Shown here piece by piece: positions 28,786 through 41,536 of a stretch of DNA of 64,000 nt. The position numbers and the translations under genes are program-made. The notes beneath the pieces are model-generated. The model was given only the letters and a program-made list of their open reading frames with translations. It did no database searches and was not told the origin of the DNA. Origin of the DNA: Thiohalobacter sp. IOR34. GTDB taxonomy: Bacteria > Pseudomonadota > Gammaproteobacteria > Thiohalobacterales > Thiohalobacteraceae. Every line of letters starts with the position of its first letter. Within the stretch, counting starts at the first letter, position 1. The stretch covers positions 1,089,438-1,153,437 of the forward strand of contig NZ_CP128988.1 in assembly GCF_030406045.1 (NCBI RefSeq). The letters are read 5' to 3'.

Positions 28786-29030
28786 CCCGGATATTGCACC
28801 AAGGCGGCGCGCATGATCGGAGTGCAGGCTGGTATACAAGGCCAGGAGGCTCGCAAATAGGCCCTCGTAGCGGGGTACACTTTGTGCCTATTCGATCTCA
28901 GAACGCATCTGGCTGCGCATCCTGGCCGATCCCCCTTGAACCCTGGCTACGGCTATACTTCTGCGGGTGATCGACCAAGCTGCTTTGCCAGCTCCGCCCT
29001 GAGAATCGAATCCTTGGTGCAATATCCGGG
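28786..29030. mobile_element. 245-bp TIR element (YTAR-flanked MITE), copy 1
   Basis: Ends CCCGGATATTGCACCAAGG (28786) and CCTTGGTGCAATATCCGGG (to 29030). Flanks are CCAG on the left and CTAG on the right, so one flank appears mutated. The interior matches the reverse complement of the copy at 32000-32244, and the length is identical to that copy and to 49118-49362. It interrupts an IS3-type transposase remnant. A 24-bp palindrome (CAGCCTG...CAGGCTG) sits just to its left after another CTAG. Confidence 0.75.
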
Positions 29031-29195
29031 CTAGCTGCCCGGTCACTGTGATGGATCAGCCCCTCAGTCCCAGTCTGTGACCACAGCGCCTGCTCCAGCG
29101 CATCCAGCACTAATGAACCTCGCTACTCGCAAGCCGACAATGCGACGTGCGAAGACATCGATGACGAACGCCACGAAGACGACGCCGGCCCAGGT
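29031..29195 (-). pseudogene. IS3-family transposase (orfB) remnant
   Basis: On the minus strand one frame reads TWAGVVFVAFVIDVFARRIVG and a shifted frame reads LDALEQALWSQTGTEGLIHHSDR, both part of the integrase-core (DDE) region of IS3-group transposases. A frameshift/deletion separates the two pieces, and the 245-bp element cuts the gene right after HHSDR. From 29196 to 29321 I see nothing recognisable. Confidence 0.7.
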
Positions 29196-29321: not shown

Positions 29322-30455
29322 GTGCATTTGTATAAAAAGTTCCTGATCAATTCATTGCGGAACAATATGGCGAAGGGTATGGAAAGAATAAATGCCCTTT
29401 TTCATAAGTCTCGTGCTAGCTCCGATCAAGGAAGTCACCTGGCTCCACGCAGGATGAGCTCAGATCGGGGACACCGACAAATAAAAGTACGGAAGATCAT
29501 GGACACTACAAAGTTTCTTGACGAGAAACCAAAAATAATATTTGAAAAGCGATTTGAGCAATGCCCGCTTTGCTTGGAAAGGGAGTTCCATCCCGATGGA
29601 AATATAGAATTTAATGAGCACAAGCTGGAATATAGTTTGTGCAGGCGTTGCGGACTAAAATTTTTAAATCCACCAATCAAAAAAGATGGCTACGTCAATA
29701 TATACAAATATTTTTTCTGGAGCGAATTTGACATTAATAAAAATAAACTCAAAAAAATCAGCTTAAAAAAAGGTCGTGCTCATAACAAAGCAATTTACCA
29801 CTCCGGTATGGTATCGGAAAATATCAGCATAAATGAAAAAACAAAAATTCTTGATGTCGGTTCTGGGTATGGGTATTTACTCACAGAGCTGAAAAAGCAA
29901 TATGGATGCATAACACATGCGATAGAACCCGGGGAACAGGCAATTGCAGTCCTGAAAGAATCAGGCATTGAACATGTCGGAAGTGATGCTGATATTTTCT
30001 TTCAAGAAAACGCCGGAAATGTTTATGACATAATTTGTTTTGCATCATCTCTGATTAATTTCACCGATCCGGTTGAAATATTAAAGGGTGCAAATCGCAA
30101 CCTGTCTGATGGAGGATACGTTTATATTCAGATAAACAATCCGTTGGCAAGAGGTGGCGAATCATTATGGCATCCTTTTTTAATGACACAGGAATGCCTT
30201 GAATTTTTACTGAAAAAGTGCGGTTTCAAACCAATAATCTGGGATTTTGACCCATCCCCGGACAAAAAATCAAAGCCGTTTAAATGGTGGATATCTGTGA
30301 TTGCGAGGAAAGAACCCGTTAATGACTTCGAACTCCATCACTTTAATGTAGAAGAATATTTAGAGAGAAGAAAAAAAGGACAGGCCAATATCAGGAAAAC
30401 CTATCAAGACAAGATATATATAAGGGAAAAAAGGAAGAGCCACCCAATGGTTTAG
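29322..30455 (+). CDS. class I SAM-dependent methyltransferase with N-terminal zinc-ribbon motif
   Basis: 377 aa if the GTG at 29322 is used; ATGs at residues 16, 20 and 60 (29499, MDTTKFLDEK) are alternatives. A CPLC...CRRC zinc-ribbon pair (residues 81-84 and 107-110) precedes a Rossmann methyltransferase with motif I ILDVGSGYGYLLTELKK (about 177-193). This layout is typical of methyltransferases acting on sugars or small metabolites; the substrate is unknown. The gene is strikingly A+T-rich compared with its neighbours and is flanked by two transposase remnants, so it is probably acquired. No operon partner is visible. Confidence 0.8.
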   Translation: MHLYKKFLINSLRNNMAKGMERINALFHKSRASSDQGSHLAPRRMSSDRGHRQIKVRKIMDTTKFLDEKPKIIFEKRFEQCPLCLEREFHPDGNIEFNEHKLEYSLCRRCGLKFLNPPIKKDGYVNIYKYFFWSEFDINKNKLKKISLKKGRAHNKAIYHSGMVSENISINEKTKILDVGSGYGYLLTELKKQYGCITHAIEPGEQAIAVLKESGIEHVGSDADIFFQENAGNVYDIICFASSLINFTDPVEILKGANRNLSDGGYVYIQINNPLARGGESLWHPFLMTQECLEFLLKKCGFKPIIWDFDPSPDKKSKPFKWWISVIARKEPVNDFELHHFNVEEYLERRKKGQANIRKTYQDKIYIREKRKSHPMV

Positions 30456-31941: not shown

Positions 31942-31999
31942 GCGTCCAAATGGTACGAAAAAAATGGTATCCCGTGCCAACGATTCTTTTGATCGCTAG

Positions 32000-32244
32000 C
32001 CTGGATGTTGCACCAAGGATTCGATGCCCAGGGCGGAGCTGGCAAAGCAGGTTGGTCGATCACCCGCAGAAGCATAGCCGTAGCTAGGGTTCAAGAGGGA
32101 TCGGCCAGGATGCGCAGCCAGATGCTTTCTGAGATCGAATAGGCACAAACCGTAACAGGGCACAATCGCTCGCAGAGGGAATCACTGCCTTGATAAATAC
32201 CGGATAAATTACGCATTCAAGGCCGCCTTCGTGCAATATGCGGG
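32000..32244. mobile_element. 245-bp TIR element (YTAR-flanked MITE), copy 2
   Basis: Left end CCTGGATGTTGCACCAAGG, right end CCTTCGTGCAATATGCGGG. It is flanked on both sides by CTAG (31996-31999 and 32245-32248). The interior is closely similar to 49118-49362. No coding content. Confidence 0.85.
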
Positions 32245-32598: not shown

Positions 32599-33888
32599 AT
32601 GGTTCAATGGGATCTGCGTCGTATTGCGAGCCGGCTGTTGTTCATCGGCCTGGGGATACAGTTCTGGGCGTCCCCGGTCTCCGCCATGCCGGAATTCGCC
32701 CGCAAGTACAGCCTGAGCTGTGCCGCCTGCCATGCCGCCTTTCCGCGGCTGAACAAGTTTGGTGAGCATTTCCGTGACAGCAACATGCGGCTGCCGAACT
32801 GGAAGGACAACACCGTCAAGACCGGCGACGAGCGGCTGGCACTGCCGCCCTATCCGCCGCTGGCGGTGCGCGCCCAGGCCTATGTTCAGGCGCGTGACGG
32901 TCGATCCATCGATCCCCTGACCGGCGTCAGCGAGAATGCCAGCACGGATTTCCAGTCGCCCTATCTGATCAAGCTGTTGTCCAGTGCGCCGCTCAGCGAT
33001 CACATCAGCTACTATTTCTACGGCATCCTGGCGGAGAAGGGCGGCAACGGCCAGGTGATCGTGGAGGACGCCTGGTTCCGCCATGACGATATCTTCGGCA
33101 GTGGCGTCGGCATGATGCTGGGTCAGTTCCAGGTCTCCGACCTGATGTTCGCCCGCGAGACACGACTTTCGTTCCAGGACTTCATGGCCTATCGCATGGC
33201 CGGCATCACCTATGACCGGGGCGTGCTCTTCGACCGCGGCCTGGGGCCCATCGACCTGGCACTCGGCCTGGTCAACGGCAACGGCATCGAGGACAACCTG
33301 AACATCAACAGCCCGGGCTATCGCCGGCCGGACAAGATGTTCGACAACGACAATTCCAAGACCCTGTTCGGTCGCATCGGTGGCGAGCTGGGACCGGTGC
33401 GGCTGGGGCTGTTCGGCCTGTCCGGCAAGCAGCGCAACGCCACCGGGGCGGCGGGTCTCGACAGCGGCAGCCGCAATACCGACAAGCGGGCCTATGGGCT
33501 CGATCTGTCCGGGGTGATCGCCGGCAAGGCCTACTGGTTCGGCCAGTATCTGTGGAACGAGTGGGACGGGTTCCTCAGCCAGGGACGGAACTACCAGTGG
33601 CAGGGCGGCTTCCTCGGCCTCGACTACATCGCCAATGACCGCTGGGCCTTTTCCGCGCTCTACAACTATGCCGATGCGGGTGATCTGGCTAATACCGACA
33701 CCATCTATGAGGGTATCGACATCAACAGCCTGTCGCTGACCGCCAGCTACTATTTCATGCGCAACGTCAAGGGCGTGGCCGAGGCCAACATCGACTTCCT
33801 GGATGAACAGTCCCGGACCGGCAGCTACTACACCGGCCACCTGAGCAAGGAAAACTACATCCTCTTCGGTTTCGATGCGGCCTTCTGA
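32599..33888 (+). CDS. monoheme cytochrome c-outer membrane porin fusion (Cyc2-like architecture)
   Basis: 429 aa. Signal peptide (residues 1-29, RRIASRLLFIGLG...SPVSA) is followed almost at once by a heme c motif, CAACH at residues 41-45, in the context FARKYSLSCAACHAAFPRLN and then KFGEHFRD. The rest is rich in alternating aromatic/polar strands with Gly-Asn turns and ends in Phe (FGFDAAF), as outer-membrane beta-barrels do. A short N-terminal CxxCH followed by FPxLNxxG and a single barrel is the layout of Cyc2 iron oxidases and related fused cytochrome-porins. An electron conduit at the outer membrane is inference; the substrate is unknown. Good ribosome binding site (AAGGAGAG). Its 3' end overlaps the next gene, and ccm genes follow. 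Confidence 0.82.
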   Translation: MVQWDLRRIASRLLFIGLGIQFWASPVSAMPEFARKYSLSCAACHAAFPRLNKFGEHFRDSNMRLPNWKDNTVKTGDERLALPPYPPLAVRAQAYVQARDGRSIDPLTGVSENASTDFQSPYLIKLLSSAPLSDHISYYFYGILAEKGGNGQVIVEDAWFRHDDIFGSGVGMMLGQFQVSDLMFARETRLSFQDFMAYRMAGITYDRGVLFDRGLGPIDLALGLVNGNGIEDNLNINSPGYRRPDKMFDNDNSKTLFGRIGGELGPVRLGLFGLSGKQRNATGAAGLDSGSRNTDKRAYGLDLSGVIAGKAYWFGQYLWNEWDGFLSQGRNYQWQGGFLGLDYIANDRWAFSALYNYADAGDLANTDTIYEGIDINSLSLTASYYFMRNVKGVAEANIDFLDEQSRTGSYYTGHLSKENYILFGFDAAF

Positions 33889-34414
33889 GTTTTTTCGTCC
33901 GCTGTTCGCCGCCGGCCTGCTGCTTGCGGCGCCGCTTGCCGTCGCTGCTGACGGCTTGAAGCTGCATCGGCTGCTCGTCGAGTCCGAACCGCCGGGTGCC
34001 GAGGTCCACGCCATCGGTGGCCGTCTGGGTGTCACGCCCCTCAGCATCCCTGAACGGGCGATCTACCCCAACGACTATCCCGACGAGCGCCTCTCCTGGT
34101 ACGGGGTGATCGAACTGCGCCATCCGGACTGCCGCCCCTGGCGGCACCGCGTCACCCTGGAGGACATCGGTCAAGGGCTGCAGGCAAGGCTGGAATGCGA
34201 GCGTCAGGCGCCGGTTTCGCCGCCATCCGCGCGGAAGACGGCCAGTCCCCGGGCACCGGTGGCAGGTTCGGGGAAAGCAGGGGGTGGCGAGGCGCTGTCC
34301 GTCCGCCGCCTGCGCCAGCTCAGGGTCCTCCAGGAACTGCTCGACGACGGTCTGATCTCCGCGGCGGAAGAAGCCGCGATCCGCCGCCGCATCCTGCTCA
34401 GGGTCGAAGAATAA
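33875..34414 (+). CDS. exported PEGA-like protein with C-terminal SHOCT-like segment
   Basis: 179 aa, starting inside the last codons of the cytochrome-porin gene (14-bp overlap), so the two are probably translated together. A signal peptide (LFAAGLLLAAPLAVAA) is followed by a PEGA-like segment (VESEPPGAEVHAIGGRLGVT, then PLSIPE), a Pro/Ala linker, and a C-terminal helical hairpin (VLQELLDDGLISAAEEAAI) similar to SHOCT domains. PEGA domains are common in surface and periplasmic proteins. Function unknown; a barrel-accessory role is inferred only from the overlap. Confidence 0.7.
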   Translation: MRPSEFFRPLFAAGLLLAAPLAVAADGLKLHRLLVESEPPGAEVHAIGGRLGVTPLSIPERAIYPNDYPDERLSWYGVIELRHPDCRPWRHRVTLEDIGQGLQARLECERQAPVSPPSARKTASPRAPVAGSGKAGGGEALSVRRLRQLRVLQELLDDGLISAAEEAAIRRRILLRVEE

Positions 34415-34590: not shown

Positions 34591-35216
<626 letters not shown>

Positions 35217-35220
<4 letters not shown>

Positions 35221-35900
35221 ATGAGCTGTCACTGTCACGGGCCTTCGCCAGCCTGCTGCGCCGCGATCTGGTGCTGACCTACCGGCGGCGTGCGGAGGCG
35301 ATCAATCCGCTGTTCTTCTTCCTTCTGGTGGTGACCCTGTTCCCGCTGGGGGTGGGTGCCGATGCCCGCTTGCTGCAGTCGATGGGACCCGGCGTGATCT
35401 GGGTGGCGGCGCTGCTCGCGGCGATGCTCTCGCTGGACGGCATCTTCCGTTCCGACTTCGACGACGGCACGCTGGAACAGCTGGTCCTCAGCCCGCACCC
35501 TCTGTCGGTGCTGGTGCTGGCCAAGGTCATCGCCCACTGGCTGGTGACCGGTTTGCCGCTGCTGGTGATGGCGCCGCTGCTGGCGGTGCTGCTCGGCCTG
35601 TCCGCCGAGGCGACCTGGATCCTGATGATCACCCTGGCGCTCGGGACCCCGGTGCTGAGCCTGGTCGGGGCCATCGGTGTGGCGCTCACCGTCGGCCTGC
35701 GCCGCGGTGGGGTGCTGCTGTCGCTGCTGGTGCTGCCGCTGTACGTGCCGGTACTGATCTTTGCCAGCAATGCCGTGCAGGGTGCCACGGCCGGTTTGCC
35801 GGTCGACGGCCAGTTGTATATGTTGGGTGCGTTTTTGCTGCTGGCACTGGTGCTCACCCCCTTGCCGACCGCAGCGGCGCTGCGTATCAGTCTGTCCTAG
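35217..35900 (+). CDS. ccmB: heme exporter membrane protein CcmB
   Basis: Membrane partner of CcmA, 227 aa with six predicted helices. It starts MNELSLSRAFASLLRRDLVL at the ATG overlapping the ccmA stop (ATGA). The family pattern FFLLVVTLFPLGVG and SLDGIFRSDFDDGTLEQLVL is clear. Confidence 0.96.
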
Positions 35901-35932
35901 GGCTGTGAACAGGTCCTAGCGACGCGGAGCTC

Positions 35933-36679
35933 ATGACGACCATGATGGCTTTCTTCCACAAACTGGCTTCACCCCCGCACTTCTACCGCATTTCCGGCCG
36001 CTGGCTGCCCTGGCTGGGTGGTCTGTTCGCCATCCTGCTGATCGCCGGTCTCTATGACGGTCTGGTGCTGGCGCCCGCCGACTACCAGCAGGGTGACAGT
36101 TTCCGCATCATGTACGTGCACGTCCCCGCGGCCTGGATGTCGCTGTTCATCTACATGGTGATGGCCGGCGCCGGCGCCATTGCCCTGGTATGGCGCATCA
36201 AGCTGGCCGAGATCGTTGCCATCAGCAGCGCCCCGATCGGTGCCAGCTTCACCTTCCTGGCCCTGGTCACCGGTTCCATCTGGGGCAAGCCCATGTGGGG
36301 TGCCTGGTGGGTGTGGGATGCGCGGCTGACCTCGGAACTCATCCTGCTGTTCCTCTATCTGGGGGTGATGGGGCTGTACGGCGCCATCGAGGACCGGCGC
36401 ATCGCCTCCCGTGCGGTAGCCATCCTGGCGCTGGTCGGGGTGGTCAACATCCCCATCATCCATTACTCGGTGGAGTGGTGGAATACCCTGCACCAGGGAC
36501 CCACGGTGACCAAGTTCGACAAGCCGTCGATCGCCCTCAGCATGCTGGTTCCGTTGCTGCTGATGGGCGTGGCCTTCAAGATCTTCTACATCATCGCCCT
36601 GCTGATGCGCGTTCGCTGCGAACTGCTCGACCGCGAACGCAGCAGCAAATGGGTGGCTGACCTGCTGGAGCTCAAATGA
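35933..36679 (+). CDS. ccmC: heme-handling protein CcmC
   Basis: HemeC-family membrane protein that presents heme to CcmE. 248 aa, six helices. The tryptophan-rich WWD motif WGKPMWGAWWVWDARLTSEL and flanking histidines (YVHVPAAWMS; IIHYSVEWWNTLHQ) are present. Overlaps ccmD by 4 bp. Confidence 0.97.
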   Translation: MTTMMAFFHKLASPPHFYRISGRWLPWLGGLFAILLIAGLYDGLVLAPADYQQGDSFRIMYVHVPAAWMSLFIYMVMAGAGAIALVWRIKLAEIVAISSAPIGASFTFLALVTGSIWGKPMWGAWWVWDARLTSELILLFLYLGVMGLYGAIEDRRIASRAVAILALVGVVNIPIIHYSVEWWNTLHQGPTVTKFDKPSIALSMLVPLLLMGVAFKIFYIIALLMRVRCELLDRERSSKWVADLLELK

Positions 36680-36846
36680 ACCTGTCCGAATTCTTTCACA
36701 TGGGTGGCTATGCGGCCTACGTCTGGAGTTCCTATGCCCTGGCGGCAGTGGTGCTGGGGCTGAACCTGTGGTTGCCGGCGCGGCGCCTGCAGCAGCTGAA
36801 GAAGACGCTGCGCCGCCGGGCGCAGCTGGCGGAGCGACGCGCATGA
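36676..36846 (+). CDS. ccmD: heme exporter protein CcmD
   Basis: 56-aa single-helix membrane protein. It starts MNLSEFFHMGGYAAYVWSSY, followed by LALAAVVLGLNLWLPARRL and a basic tail. It overlaps ccmC at its start and ccmE at its end, so length and position identify it as CcmD. Confidence 0.93.
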   Translation: MNLSEFFHMGGYAAYVWSSYALAAVVLGLNLWLPARRLQQLKKTLRRRAQLAERRA

Positions 36847-37289
36847 CCCCGGCCCGCAAGAAACGCCTGCTGCTGATCGGTCTGATGGTCCTGGGCGTGG
36901 TGATCGCCACCGGTTTCGCCCTGACCGCCTTCAACCGCAACATGATGTTCTTCTTCTCGCCCAGCGAGGTGGTGGCCGGCAAGGCACCGACCGGTGCGCT
37001 GTTCCGCATCGGCGGGCTGGTGGTCAACGGCACCCTGGAGCGGCCGGGCGACGGCATGACCGTACGCTTCGACCTGACCGACAACAAGGCGGTGGTGAGG
37101 GTCGAGTATACCGGCATCCTGCCCGACCTGTTCCGCGAGGGGCAGGGCATCGTCGCCAAGGGGCGTCTGCGCCCGGACGGGGTGTTCGTCGCCGACGAGG
37201 TGCTGGCCAAGCATGACGAGAACTACATGCCGCCGGAGGTGGCGGAGATGATGAAGGAAAGCGGTGCCCATCCGGAGGCCGGCCAATGA
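36843..37289 (+). CDS. ccmE: heme chaperone CcmE
   Basis: Periplasmic, membrane-anchored heme carrier, 148 aa. N-terminal anchor (RLLLIGLMVLGVVIATGFAL) and an OB-fold domain. The heme-binding His lies in VLAKHDENYMPPEV, with the family tyrosine three residues on. ATG 36843 overlaps the ccmD stop. Confidence 0.97.
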   Translation: MTPARKKRLLLIGLMVLGVVIATGFALTAFNRNMMFFFSPSEVVAGKAPTGALFRIGGLVVNGTLERPGDGMTVRFDLTDNKAVVRVEYTGILPDLFREGQGIVAKGRLRPDGVFVADEVLAKHDENYMPPEVAEMMKESGAHPEAGQ

Positions 37290-39265
37290 TCCCCGAGATC
37301 GGCCACTTCGCCCTGATCCTGGCGCTGTGCATGGCGCTGGTGCAGTCCACCCTGCCGGTGATCGGCGCGGCACGCGGCATCCCTTCCTGGATTGCCGTCG
37401 CCCGTCCCGCGGTCTGGGCACAGCTGCTGTTCATGCTGGTGGCCTACGGCAGCCTGACCTATGCCTTCATCGTTCACGACTTCTCGGTGCGCTATGTGGC
37501 AGGGAACTCCAACGCCCAACTGCCGCTGATGTATCTGATCTCCGGGGTCTGGGGTGCGCACGAGGGCTCGCTGTTGCTCTGGGCCCTGGTGCTCTCGCTG
37601 TGGACGGCGGGTGTGGCCCTGTTCAGCCGCAGCGTGCCCGAGACCATGCTGGCCCGGGTGCTCGGCGTCATGGGCATGGTCAGCGTCGGTTTTCTGCTCT
37701 TCCTGCTGATCACCTCCAACCCCTTCGAGCGCCTGTTCCCGGCGCCGCTGGAAGGGCGTGACCTCAATCCGCTGCTGCAGGATCCGGGTCTGGCCTTCCA
37801 TCCGCCGATGCTCTACATGGGCTACGTCGGCTTCTCGGTGGCCTTTGCCTTCTCCATCGCCGGCATGCTCGGCGGGCGGCTGGATGCGGCCTGGGCCCGC
37901 TGGTCGAGGCCCTGGACCACCATCGCCTGGGTATTCCTGACCCTCGGCATCACCCTCGGCAGCTGGTGGGCCTACTACGAGCTGGGCTGGGGCGGCTGGT
38001 GGTTCTGGGATCCGGTCGAGAACGCCTCCTTCATGCCCTGGCTGGTGGGTACCGCGCTGATGCACTCCCTGGCCGTCACCGAGAAGCGTGGTGCCTTCAA
38101 GGCCTGGACCGTGCTGTTGGCGATCTTCAGCTTTTCGCTCAGCCTGCTCGGCACGTTCCTGGTCCGTTCCGGCGTGCTGACCTCGGTACATGCCTTTGCC
38201 AGTGATCCGGCGCGTGGTGTCTTCATCCTCATCTTCCTGGTCGCGGTGGTGGGTTCCTCGCTGGCGCTCTATGCCTGGCGCGCGCCGCAGATTCGCAGCG
38301 AGGTCGGTTTCCGCCTGGTCTCGCGCGAAACCGCACTGCTGGTCAACAACGTCCTGCTGGTGGTGCTGGCCGCCAGCATCCTGCTCGGCACCCTCTATCC
38401 GCTGATCGTCGATGCCCTGGGCATCGGCAAGATCTCCGTCGGACCGCCGTACTTCGACAGCATCTTCGTGCCGTTGACCATTCCGCTGGCGTTGCTGGTG
38501 GGTGTCGGTGCCCTGCTGCGCTGGAAGCAGGACAGCCTGGCCCGGATCTGGGCGCGGCTGCGCCTGTCTGCGGTGTTCAGCCTGGCCGGCGGTGTTGGCC
38601 TCGCCCTGCTGGCACCGGAGTTCCGCTTCTCCGCGGCACTGGGGCTGGTGCTGGCGCTGTGGATCACCCTCACCACCCTGCGCGGTCTGGCCGATCGCCT
38701 GCCCGCGCGCCGCGGGCTGTGGACCGGCGTGCGTGCCGTACCCCGTGCCTTCTATGGCATGAGCATCGCCCATGTCGGCATTGCCGTGTTCATCGTCGGT
38801 ATCACCCTGACCACGGTCTACTCCGAGGAGAAGGACATCCGTCTGGCGCCCGGCGAGTCCTTCGAGATGGGCGGTTATGCGTTCCGCTTCGAGGGCGTCC
38901 GCCACAGCGAAGGGCCCAACTACACGGCCGACGAGGGACGGGTGCTGGTCTTCCGCGACGGCCAGCAGGTGGCCGAGCTGAAGCCGGAGAAGCGTATCTA
39001 CCGGGTGCAGCGCATGCCGATGACCGAGGCGGCCATCGATGCCGGCCTGACCCGTGACCTGTTCGTGGCCCTGGGCGAGCCGCTGGGTGAGGCGGGTGCC
39101 TGGAGCCTGCGCCTCTATCACAAGCCCTTCATCCGCTGGATCTGGTTCGGCTGCCTGTTCATGGCCATCGGTGGCTTGCTGGCGGCCACCGACCGGCGCT
39201 ACCGGCTGGAGGCTCGGCGTGCGGCGGCCTCGACCGCGGCGCCCCTGGCGGAGGTGGCCTCATGA
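37286..39265 (+). CDS. ccmF: cytochrome c heme lyase subunit CcmF
   Basis: Large membrane component of the heme ligation complex, 659 aa with about 15 helices. The WWD-type motif GGWWFWDPVENASFMPWL and the upstream LYMGYVG and YVAGNSN segments match CcmF/NrfE. A periplasmic domain near the C-terminus precedes the final helix. Overlaps its neighbours by 4 bp on both sides. Confidence 0.97.
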   Translation: MIPEIGHFALILALCMALVQSTLPVIGAARGIPSWIAVARPAVWAQLLFMLVAYGSLTYAFIVHDFSVRYVAGNSNAQLPLMYLISGVWGAHEGSLLLWALVLSLWTAGVALFSRSVPETMLARVLGVMGMVSVGFLLFLLITSNPFERLFPAPLEGRDLNPLLQDPGLAFHPPMLYMGYVGFSVAFAFSIAGMLGGRLDAAWARWSRPWTTIAWVFLTLGITLGSWWAYYELGWGGWWFWDPVENASFMPWLVGTALMHSLAVTEKRGAFKAWTVLLAIFSFSLSLLGTFLVRSGVLTSVHAFASDPARGVFILIFLVAVVGSSLALYAWRAPQIRSEVGFRLVSRETALLVNNVLLVVLAASILLGTLYPLIVDALGIGKISVGPPYFDSIFVPLTIPLALLVGVGALLRWKQDSLARIWARLRLSAVFSLAGGVGLALLAPEFRFSAALGLVLALWITLTTLRGLADRLPARRGLWTGVRAVPRAFYGMSIAHVGIAVFIVGITLTTVYSEEKDIRLAPGESFEMGGYAFRFEGVRHSEGPNYTADEGRVLVFRDGQQVAELKPEKRIYRVQRMPMTEAAIDAGLTRDLFVALGEPLGEAGAWSLRLYHKPFIRWIWFGCLFMAIGGLLAATDRRYRLEARRAAASTAAPLAEVAS

Positions 39266-39795
39266 ATCGTTATCTGTTGCCGCTCGGTATCTTCGCTGTG
39301 CTGGTCGTGCTGCTGGCCGTCGGCCTTGGCCTCGACCCGCGCAAGGTGCCCTCGCCGCTGATCGACAAGCCCGCGCCGGCCTTCAGTCTGCCGCGCCTCC
39401 ACCAGCCGGAGCAGAGCATCGGCACGGCCGACATGAAGGGCAAGGTCTGGTTGCTCAACGTCTGGGCCTCCTGGTGCAGCGCCTGCCGTTCCGAGCACCC
39501 GCTGGTCATCGAACTGGGACGGCGTGCCGGTATCGAGATCGTCGGCCTCGATTACAAGGACCAGCGCGAGGATGCCCTGCGCTGGCTGAGAATGCTTGGC
39601 GATCCCTACACCTCCATCGCCTTCGATGCCGATGGGCGGGTCGGTATCGACTGGGGGGTGTATGGCGTGCCCGAGTCCTTTCTGATCGACAAGCAGGGCA
39701 TCATCCGCTACAAGCAGATCGGTCCCATCGACCGCGAGTCGCTGGAGGAGACCTTGCTGCCGATGATCCGCCAATTGCAGGAGGAACCCGCATGA
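39262..39795 (+). CDS. ccmG: thiol:disulfide interchange protein CcmG/DsbE
   Basis: Membrane-anchored periplasmic thioredoxin that keeps apocytochrome or CcmH cysteines reduced. 177 aa. N-terminal anchor (LPLGIFAVLVVLLAVGLGL); active site WASWCSACRSEHP; the cis-Pro loop GVPESFLID. Overlaps ccmF and ccmH by 4 bp. Confidence 0.97.
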   Translation: MNRYLLPLGIFAVLVVLLAVGLGLDPRKVPSPLIDKPAPAFSLPRLHQPEQSIGTADMKGKVWLLNVWASWCSACRSEHPLVIELGRRAGIEIVGLDYKDQREDALRWLRMLGDPYTSIAFDADGRVGIDWGVYGVPESFLIDKQGIIRYKQIGPIDRESLEETLLPMIRQLQEEPA

Positions 39796-40274
39796 GGGCG
39801 CTGCTGGGAAGCCTGTTCCTGATACTGATGCTGTCCGCCGGCCTGGCGCGGGCAGCGATCGAGATCCACAGTTTCAACGATCCGGCAGAGGAGGCGCGTT
39901 ATCGGCAGCTGATCAGCGAGCTGCGCTGCCTGGTCTGTCAGAACCAGAATCTGGCGGAATCCAACGCCGACCTGGCGCGCGACCTGCGCCAGCAGACTTA
40001 CGAGATGATCGAGCAGGGCAAGAGCGATGAGGAGATCATCGACTACATGGTGAACCGCTATGGCGACTTCGTCCTCTACCGCCCGCCCTTCAAGTCCACC
40101 ACCCTGCTGCTCTGGCTGGGCCCCTTCCTGCTCTTCGCCGTGGGTTTCCTGGTGATGCTGGGTGTGGTGCGCAAGCGGGCACGGGCCGCGGGTCCGTCGC
40201 TGGACGAGGCGGCCCGCCAGCGGGCCCGGGAGCTGCTCGGCGAGGGTGAGGAGAAGGAGTCGAAACCGTCATGA
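39792..40274 (+). CDS. ccmH: cytochrome c maturation protein CcmH
   Basis: Apocytochrome thiol reductase, 160 aa. A signal peptide is followed by the LRCLVCQNQNLAESNADLA motif with the redox CxxC pair, then a membrane helix (LLLWLGPFLLFAVGFLVML). The TPR part found in the fused E. coli CcmH is encoded separately here as CcmI. Confidence 0.96.
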   Translation: MRALLGSLFLILMLSAGLARAAIEIHSFNDPAEEARYRQLISELRCLVCQNQNLAESNADLARDLRQQTYEMIEQGKSDEEIIDYMVNRYGDFVLYRPPFKSTTLLLWLGPFLLFAVGFLVMLGVVRKRARAAGPSLDEAARQRARELLGEGEEKESKPS

Positions 40275-41536
40275 CCATCTTCTGGTTGAGTGCCTCGGCC
40301 ATGGTGTTGCTGGCCCTGGCCATCCTCGCTCCCGCACTGCTGCGTCGGGGGCAGGTCCGCGAGCTGGATCGTGACCAGCAGAACGTGGCCATCGCCCGCG
40401 AACGCCTGGCCGAGCTGCGCGTCGAATACGAAGCCGGGCAGCTCTCGGAGGAGGCCTTCCGCTCCACCCGCGAGGAACTGGAGCTGATGCTGCTGACCGA
40501 TCTCGAACCCGCTGCGCGCCAGGCCGTGGCCGTGGCCGAGGGTCGGGGGCGCTGGATGTTGCCCGTGCTGGCCCTCGCCGTGCCGCTGATGGCGGTCTCG
40601 CTGTATCTCGCGCTCGGCAACCCCGATCTGATCGAGCCGCCGGAGACGCCGGTGGCGGCCGGGGGGCATGACGGCACATCTGGCAAGATGCCGTCGGTGG
40701 ATGCCATGCTCGAGGCCCTGGTGCAGCGCCTGCAGCAGGAGCCGGACAATGCGCGCGGCTGGTACCTGCTGGCGCGCAGCTACATGTCGCTGGGTCGATA
40801 CGAAGAGGCCGTGAAGGCCTTCGAGCGCCTGCATGCCCTGGTCGGCGATCAGCCGGGCGTGCTCACCGGGCTGGCCGATGCCCTGGCCATGACCCAGGGG
40901 GCGCGCCTCTCCGGGCGTCCCTTCGAGCTGTTGCAGAAGGCGCTGGAGATTCAGCCGGACGATCCCACCGCGCTCTGGCTGACCGGTCAGGCCTACATGG
41001 AGCAGGGCAAGCCGCGTGAAGCCCTGGAACACTGGCAGCGGCTGGATGCCCTGCTTGCCGACCAGCCCGAGAGTCAGGCCGAGCTGCGGCAGCTGATGGC
41101 CCGCGCCGAACAACAGTTGCGTGACGCCGGCGAGGCCCTGCCCGAGCCCGTGGTGAAAACGACCACCTCCCGTCAGCCGGCTGCCGGGGCGGTGAGCCTC
41201 AAGGTACGGATCGAACTGGACCCGGCACTGGCCGGCAAGATCGATCCCGAGGCGCCGCTGTTCATCTATGCCAAGGCCCTCGAGGGGCCACCGATGCCGC
41301 TGGCCGCGGTGCGCAAGCAGGTCAAGGATCTGCCGCTGGAGGTGGTGCTGGATGACCGCATGGCGATGATGCCGGCGATGCGCCTGTCGGCTTTCAAGGA
41401 GGTCAGGGTAGGGGCGCGCGTCTCGCTGTCTGGTGATCCGGTCGCCCACAGCGGTGACCTCTTCGGCGAGCTGGCGCCGGTGGCCGTGGATTCGAAGACG
41501 CCCATCGCGATCCGCATCGATCAGCGGGTGCCCTGA
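40271..41536 (+). CDS. ccmI: cytochrome c maturation TPR protein CcmI
   Basis: Apocytochrome chaperone, 421 aa. Two N-terminal membrane helices (residues 2-21 and 96-116) flank a cytoplasmic coiled-coil loop. TPR repeats follow (ARGWYLLARSYMSLGRYEEA and similar), and a C-terminal beta-rich domain (ending AVDSKTPIAIRIDQRVP) is typical. Last gene of the ccm run. A single REP-like hairpin half follows at about 41570-41625. Confidence 0.93.
   Translation: MTIFWLSASAMVLLALAILAPALLRRGQVRELDRDQQNVAIARERLAELRVEYEAGQLSEEAFRSTREELELMLLTDLEPAARQAVAVAEGRGRWMLPVLALAVPLMAVSLYLALGNPDLIEPPETPVAAGGHDGTSGKMPSVDAMLEALVQRLQQEPDNARGWYLLARSYMSLGRYEEAVKAFERLHALVGDQPGVLTGLADALAMTQGARLSGRPFELLQKALEIQPDDPTALWLTGQAYMEQGKPREALEHWQRLDALLADQPESQAELRQLMARAEQQLRDAGEALPEPVVKTTTSRQPAAGAVSLKVRIELDPALAGKIDPEAPLFIYAKALEGPPMPLAAVRKQVKDLPLEVVLDDRMAMMPAMRLSAFKEVRVGARVSLSGDPVAHSGDLFGELAPVAVDSKTPIAIRIDQRVP

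Follow-up and report, generated by a model that had tools for sequence, protein, structure and literature searches.

Cyc2-like genes serve as markers of iron oxidation. Cyc2 of A. ferrooxidans, Cyc2 PV-1 of Mariprofundus and Cyt572 of Leptospirillum are described as fused cytochrome-porins in PMC8406198, which also assigns to Cyc2 PV-1 a barrel of 16 strands with likeness to OprO/OprP and carries the warning (Keffer 2021) that function is uncertain for proteins far from the tested Cyc2s. Here we analyzed a window (i.e., the whole stretch of DNA under study, 64,000 nucleotides from Thiohalobacter sp. IOR34) in which a gene for a protein of this type is overlapped by a gene for a PEGA/SHOCT-like protein. 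We favor, at a probability of roughly 0.6, the reading that the two proteins form a Cyc2-like outer-membrane electron entry with a dedicated periplasmic partner. In the open-access literature (supplements excluded), no paper was found on the clade to which this cytochrome-porin belongs or on its pairing with a PEGA/SHOCT gene.

Gene layout, sequence motifs and predicted barrel

The host genome is a single contig of 2.96 Mb, and a whole-genome search with the protein detected one copy of the cytochrome-porin. A promoter scan found none. The features of the locus, with the evidence for each, are:

32599..33888, + strand: Cyc2-like monoheme cytochrome fused to a predicted 16-strand beta-barrel, 429 aa (open reading frame, homologues, tree, AlphaFold2)
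32599..32685, + strand: signal sequence, residues 1-29 (cut placed from the sequence between SA and MPE)
32683..32778, + strand: cytochrome region, residues 29-60 (AMPEFARKY, CAACH at 41-45, PRL, N..FG..F)
32863..33885, + strand: predicted 16-strand barrel, residues 89-429, with C-terminal Phe (AlphaFold2 model, structural matches)
33133..33210, + strand: loop between strands 5 and 6, residues 179-204, at the position of the porin constriction loop L3 (model, conservation)
33875..34414, + strand: PEGA/SHOCT-like partner, 179 aa (open reading frame, sub-cut-off Pfam matches, homologues, fold model)
33875..33888, + strand: overlap of the cytochrome-porin and partner genes, 14 bp (sequence)
34591..41536, + strand: set of ccmA, B, C, E, F, G, an H-type gene and ccmI, judged a chance neighbor (not seen in other loci)

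The 429-aa protein was found to carry a hydrophobic signal sequence followed by AMPEFARKYSLSCAACHAAFPRLNKFGEHF and to end in ...GFDAAF. Its single CxxCH is CAACH at residues 41-45 (i.e., 12-16 after the inferred cut), preceded by AMPEFARKY and followed by FPRLN. Thus, the signal peptide, the one CxxCH within the first 16 mature residues, the FPxLN motif and the C-terminal Phe listed in the initial annotation were all borne out by the sequence, as was the start of the second reading frame (33875-34414) inside the first (32599-33888). Compared to the published description of Cyc2-like proteins (PMC8406198), the protein is above the minimum of 365 aa, contains the heme-binding CxxCH, displays AxPxFAR[QK][TY] upstream (AMPEFARKY) and PxL downstream (PRL) of the heme site, and is predicted by AlphaFold2 to include a fused porin of about 16 strands. 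Exactly one CxxCH and an aromatic C-terminus were detected in 38 of the 38 aligned clade members. The strict form of AxPxFAR[QK][TY] is present in 22 of the 38, including the window protein, with the looser PxFARx[TY] in all 38; for comparison, 19 of 28 Gallionellaceae-family Cyc2 proteins have the strict form. Profile comparison with FARQT-type Cyc2-like proteins gave a probability of 98.4% (E 8.5e-15, 52 columns), with the similarity confined to the cytochrome region. No distal heme ligand could be named from the 38-member alignment and the model: at position 63, 17 of the 38 proteins have M and another 17 have Y (F in 3, I in 1), and H414, although invariant, is in a loop that would lie outside by barrel topology.

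AlphaFold2 modeling with 38 sequences (pLDDT 79.1, pTM 0.76) predicted the C-terminal part to be a beta-barrel of 16 strands between residues 89 and 428, in agreement with the number expected in the initial annotation; its strands are joined in turn by short turns and by loops that are mostly longer. The model is weak in the heme region (pLDDT below 50 at residues 24-35 and 38-51). The top structural matches by VIA-align were OprO (4rjw, Z 24.5, 3.7 A over 312), OprP (Z 24.3) and Omp32 (Z 24.2), tied with other 16-strand general porins (Z 23-24.5). Foldseek ranked an Omp-Pst1 mutant first (E 4.2e-12) and OprP 30th, and Pfam Porin_O_P (PF07396) was absent among the matches listed for the cytochrome-porin up to E 1.

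Phylogenetic placement and conservation of the barrel

By scan of named genomes, 77 loci were matched, including 44 (L016-L059) with 57-79% identity in the best segment and mostly full-length matches, and 33 (L060-L092) with matches mainly to the N-terminal cytochrome region. Among 369 genomes of the class, 14 matched at E 1e-156 or lower and 46 had a best match of about 1e-17 or weaker; a search of plasmid records returned three weak N-terminal matches. The alignment covers 38 of 45 loci (the 44 and the window), with pairwise identities of 54-91%. Loci L028, L038 and L056-L059 are outside the tree on account of motif pattern, length or interrupted frame, and L008, L014, L055 and the L063 row (4 of 101 rows) were dropped before tree building. 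The cytochrome-porin frame is interrupted in L057 and L028 (two pieces), by sequencing error or decay.

The hosts of the clade are Gamma- and Betaproteobacteria, with Thiohalobacter (including a MAG record, L016, and Thiohalobacter thiocyanaticus Hrh1, L027), Thiobacillus, Rhodanobacter, Microbulbifer, Steroidobacteraceae and one Gallionellaceae MAG (L053) among those named. The Thiohalobacter host is a relative of sulfur-oxidizing bacteria, Microbulbifer and Rhodanobacter are ordinary heterotrophs, and some clade hosts are not known as iron oxidizers.

In a tree of 97 Cyc2-like rows, one branch (SH-aLRT 100) sets off the 38 clade rows and another (SH-aLRT 97) the 28 Gallionellaceae-family Cyc2 rows, the two groups being separated by a long stem of 1.31 changes per column; the tree method was a quick one, and the program flags long branches at the base of the clade, so that any sister group would be provisional. 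The Gallionellaceae rows were taken as a group to be Cluster 1 based on PMC10734462, in which all Gallionellaceae iron oxidizers with cyc2 have at least one Cluster 1 copy. The phylogeny suggested in the initial annotation thus returned a sharply separated Cyc2-like clade with the window protein outside of the Gallionellaceae family, and the earlier assignment to Cyc2 stands for the cytochrome-porin layout, with Fe(II) oxidation only a putative function.

Mean pairwise identity in the clade was 0.72 for the cytochrome region and 0.64 for the barrel, compared to 0.78 (heme region) and 0.38 (barrel) for Gallionellaceae-family Cyc2 by the same measure. Ten Hyphomicrobiales-type proteins gave 0.95 and 0.56 for these two regions, and eight Rokubacteria-type proteins gave 0.94 and 0.73. 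Barrel conservation thus occurs outside the clade as well, but the clade has the highest barrel-to-heme ratio among these four sets. With loops assigned by the model and standard porin topology, extracellular loops were conserved to about the same extent as strands (0.63 vs. 0.65), and the loop at the L3 position was the most conserved (0.80), with D181, R186, E187, R189 and D194 invariant. The conserved barrel and L3 suggest, as judged from sequence, a specific pore ligand, Fe(II) or other.

These results bear on whether the protein simply does what Cyc2 does, namely oxidize Fe(II), in hosts that would be unrecognised iron oxidizers. Such a function would agree with the presence of the published Cyc2 sequence features, with a predicted barrel of 16 strands as given for Cyc2 PV-1 in PMC8406198, with the occurrence of the gene in one Gallionellaceae MAG, and with a Cyc2 homologue (type unspecified) reported in PMC5566968 for a Rhodanobacter of an enrichment that oxidizes Fe(II) with nitrate; it is doubtful, however, in light of the separate clade with its long stem and of a barrel whose conservation, measured against that of the heme region, far exceeds the value in Gallionellaceae Cyc2. 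A second clear FARQT-type gene, detected by profile search in only two of 16 genomes (15 with the clade gene and one Nitrospira), both Rhodanobacter, likewise argues against it. A link to nitrate respiration was examined and rejected, as narG was over cut-off in 2 of 14 clade genomes and 58 of 355 others (raw counts, kinship ignored).

The PEGA/SHOCT-like partner and its genomic neighborhood

The partner protein is composed of a signal sequence without lipobox, a PEGA-like beta-sandwich with two conserved cysteines (86 and 108), a Pro/Ala linker and a SHOCT-like helix pair. The initial annotation of an exported PEGA/SHOCT-like protein held for the signal sequence; the domain matches of the window protein were below the Pfam cut-offs for PEGA (PF08308, 14.4 bits vs. 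20.8) and SHOCT (PF09851, 15.5 bits vs. 27), and it was homologues that passed them (L033 for PEGA at 21.5; L151, L153 and L156 for both domains). The modeled fold is CnaB/transthyretin-like (best Z 7.8); Foldseek gave no match under E 0.001, and the fold was not used for function. No solved relative was found by sequence search with the single protein at E 10, and three solved-structure matches obtained with the partner profile (E 0.51-0.89) were judged to be chance.

Of the 41 loci whose flank reaches 700 nt or more, 17 were found by profile search to have the partner gene directly downstream of the cytochrome-porin gene; the search covered 78 loci and detected it at no other place. The partner gene is absent from 24 of the 41 and, thus, is not essential to the cytochrome-porin. 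The gap between the two genes is -14 nt in eight pairs (window counted), +1 in seven, +26 in one and +50 in one, where the seventh +1 gap (L023) is from the gene call of the neighborhood survey, the alternative start being too far upstream. Since the protein is 57-79% identical in 44 other loci and an overlap of the same length recurs, the cytochrome-porin and overlap are not considered due to chance. Within the tree, the partner was found in 15 of 16 rows of one subclade (SH-aLRT 97; L017 is without) and in none of the 22 other rows, with the paired loci L028 and L057 outside the tree. The pairing, noted as unfamiliar in the initial annotation, is real, conserved and informative; it recurs in unrelated neighborhoods within one subclade. 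Distances of the cytochrome-porin and partner were found to co-vary (Mantel r 0.83, p 0.0001, 14 pairs), a result equally expected from shared descent alone. The genes flanking the pair differ between genera, as would be expected if the two genes were transferred together, and the cytochrome-porin appears to move between bacteria with its partner gene.

The partner profile matched 28 of 369 genomes of the class. In six of 16 second-tier loci that were read, a heme-free barrel precedes the PEGA/SHOCT gene by 97-124 nt (among the other ten is L154, with a contig that ends upstream), and Porin_O_P was over cut-off in two of three such barrels scanned. Second-tier proteins mostly have a lipobox, as judged by eye. 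The two tiers share the two cysteines and the SHOCT-like end, and compared by profile at E 3.1e-52, a value that is not independent as the second-tier alignment contains the window protein and L033. Phylum-wide, 74 of 398 genomes matched, at E 2e-10 or weaker and mostly over partial stretches beyond the genome of the window itself. Based on the heme-free porins that precede them in 6 of 16 loci, the partner relatives look like a porin-partner family, mostly of lipoproteins. Two single cases were also observed: in a gammaproteobacterium (L206:3654-6361), a PEGA/SHOCT lipoprotein gene converges on a FARQT-type Cyc2-like gene and a gene for a diheme cytochrome c, and in Nitrospirales (L076:5911-9049), genes for a SHOCT-only lipoprotein and a Cyc2-like protein diverge, the latter with a two-CxxCH gene after it.

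Downstream of the pair from 34591, ccmA, ccmB, ccmC, ccmE, ccmF, ccmG (dsbE) and ccmI were identified along with a ccmH/nrfF-type protein below model cut-off, as expected from the initial annotation of a ccm set directly after the pair. This neighborhood was seen in no other surveyed locus and looks incidental, not part of the module. Identity as an iron oxidizer was likewise not derived from neighbors, as the ccm set was seen in the window only and contexts at the other loci are unrelated. Gene calls in the survey were by a home-made codon-position score that overlooked the partner genes of L016 and L020, both recovered by profile search. The recurrent neighbors, a beta-CASP hydrolase (six loci), a two-component pair (five) and a dienelactone hydrolase (four), were not taken as linked because their order differs or their identity is only moderate. 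Few c-type cytochromes were detected near the gene in the surveyed loci and, thus, no electron acceptor is indicated. In one genus only, Rhodanobacter (L032, L033 and L057), genes for a diheme cytochrome c and a COX1-type oxidase follow the partner. Upstream in the window, a 160-bp repeat is present in inverted orientation at 28876-29035 and 31995-32154, with at least 41 copies of at least 133 bp in its own genome at 84-97% identity (itself at 100%), based on 40 of 281 first-look candidates scored. Between the two copies lies an AT-rich gene (29322-30455, GC about 0.37 vs. 0.60-0.69 around it) with a weak MetW-type methyltransferase match, which looks acquired.

A selective uptake porin with its heme domain as a sensor or gate, and not respiratory electron entry, is improbable: it would suit the conserved extracellular loops and L3 and the PEGA/SHOCT relatives adjoining plain heme-free O/P-type porins, but the CxxCH is invariant, the cytochrome region is homologous to Cyc2-like proteins, no recurring transporter gene was recognised beside the cytochrome-porin in the surveyed loci, and the two-component pair of five loci is only moderately identical between lineages.

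Proposed function and comparison with known systems

We favor the Cyc2-like electron entry because gene layout and homology support it. By this model, the 16-strand porin, presumably in the outer membrane, would open its lumen to a small dissolved reductant. In or under the barrel, the N-terminal c-type domain with its single heme would take one electron and hand it to an electron carrier of the periplasm. Against this model count the weakly modeled heme region, the 24 loci that lack the partner, the scarcity of c-type cytochromes nearby and the heterotrophic hosts Microbulbifer and Rhodanobacter. The PEGA/SHOCT protein may serve as a dedicated periplasmic partner of the barrel in docking, anchoring or assembly, and in one subclade may be translationally coupled to the barrel gene. 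Oligomerisation of the barrel by SHOCT is not proposed, because a first experiment gave no support for self-association, according to PMC3581485. The separate clade together with the conserved constriction points to a specific ligand, Fe(II) or other, and the clade probably handles one such ligand since its pore constriction is strongly constrained. More tentatively, the proteins could be a separate class of outer-membrane cytochrome-porins that gene transfer has distributed among sulfur-oxidizing and heterotrophic Gamma- and Betaproteobacteria, that oxidizes a specific non-iron reductant at its conserved constriction, and that recruited its partner from a wider, so far undescribed family of porin-partner lipoproteins.

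A clade that passes the Cyc2 criteria with a differently constrained pore, and some of whose hosts are not known to oxidize iron, would render iron-oxidation calls unsafe or, alternatively, enlarge the group of bacteria counted as iron oxidizers. The partner family may provide a handle on the anchoring or assembly of such barrels, a subject not addressed in the open-access literature searched.

Among known systems, the partner resembles SHOCT-domain proteins (PMC3581485) and PEGA surface proteins in domain order and, through its above-cut-off homologues, in motifs, although it is itself below both Pfam cut-offs; in the main text of PMC3581485, the words PEGA and porin are absent. The OprO/OprP phosphate-selective porins (Porin_O_P) have a like barrel architecture and are top structural matches tied with other porins, but the window protein differs in its N-terminal heme domain and in having no listed Porin_O_P match up to E 1. 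Compared to the O/P-type porins found beside PEGA/SHOCT genes, it gave a probability of 3.9% and no convincing sequence similarity. The window protein shares with Cyc2 a signal sequence, a single CxxCH, AxPxFAR[QK][TY], PxL, a length of more than 365 aa and a predicted 16 strands. By contrast to Cyc2, its clade stands apart from that of Gallionellaceae Cyc2, has profile similarity in the cytochrome region only and a barrel with conservation close to that of the heme region, and in one subclade is joined by a PEGA/SHOCT partner.
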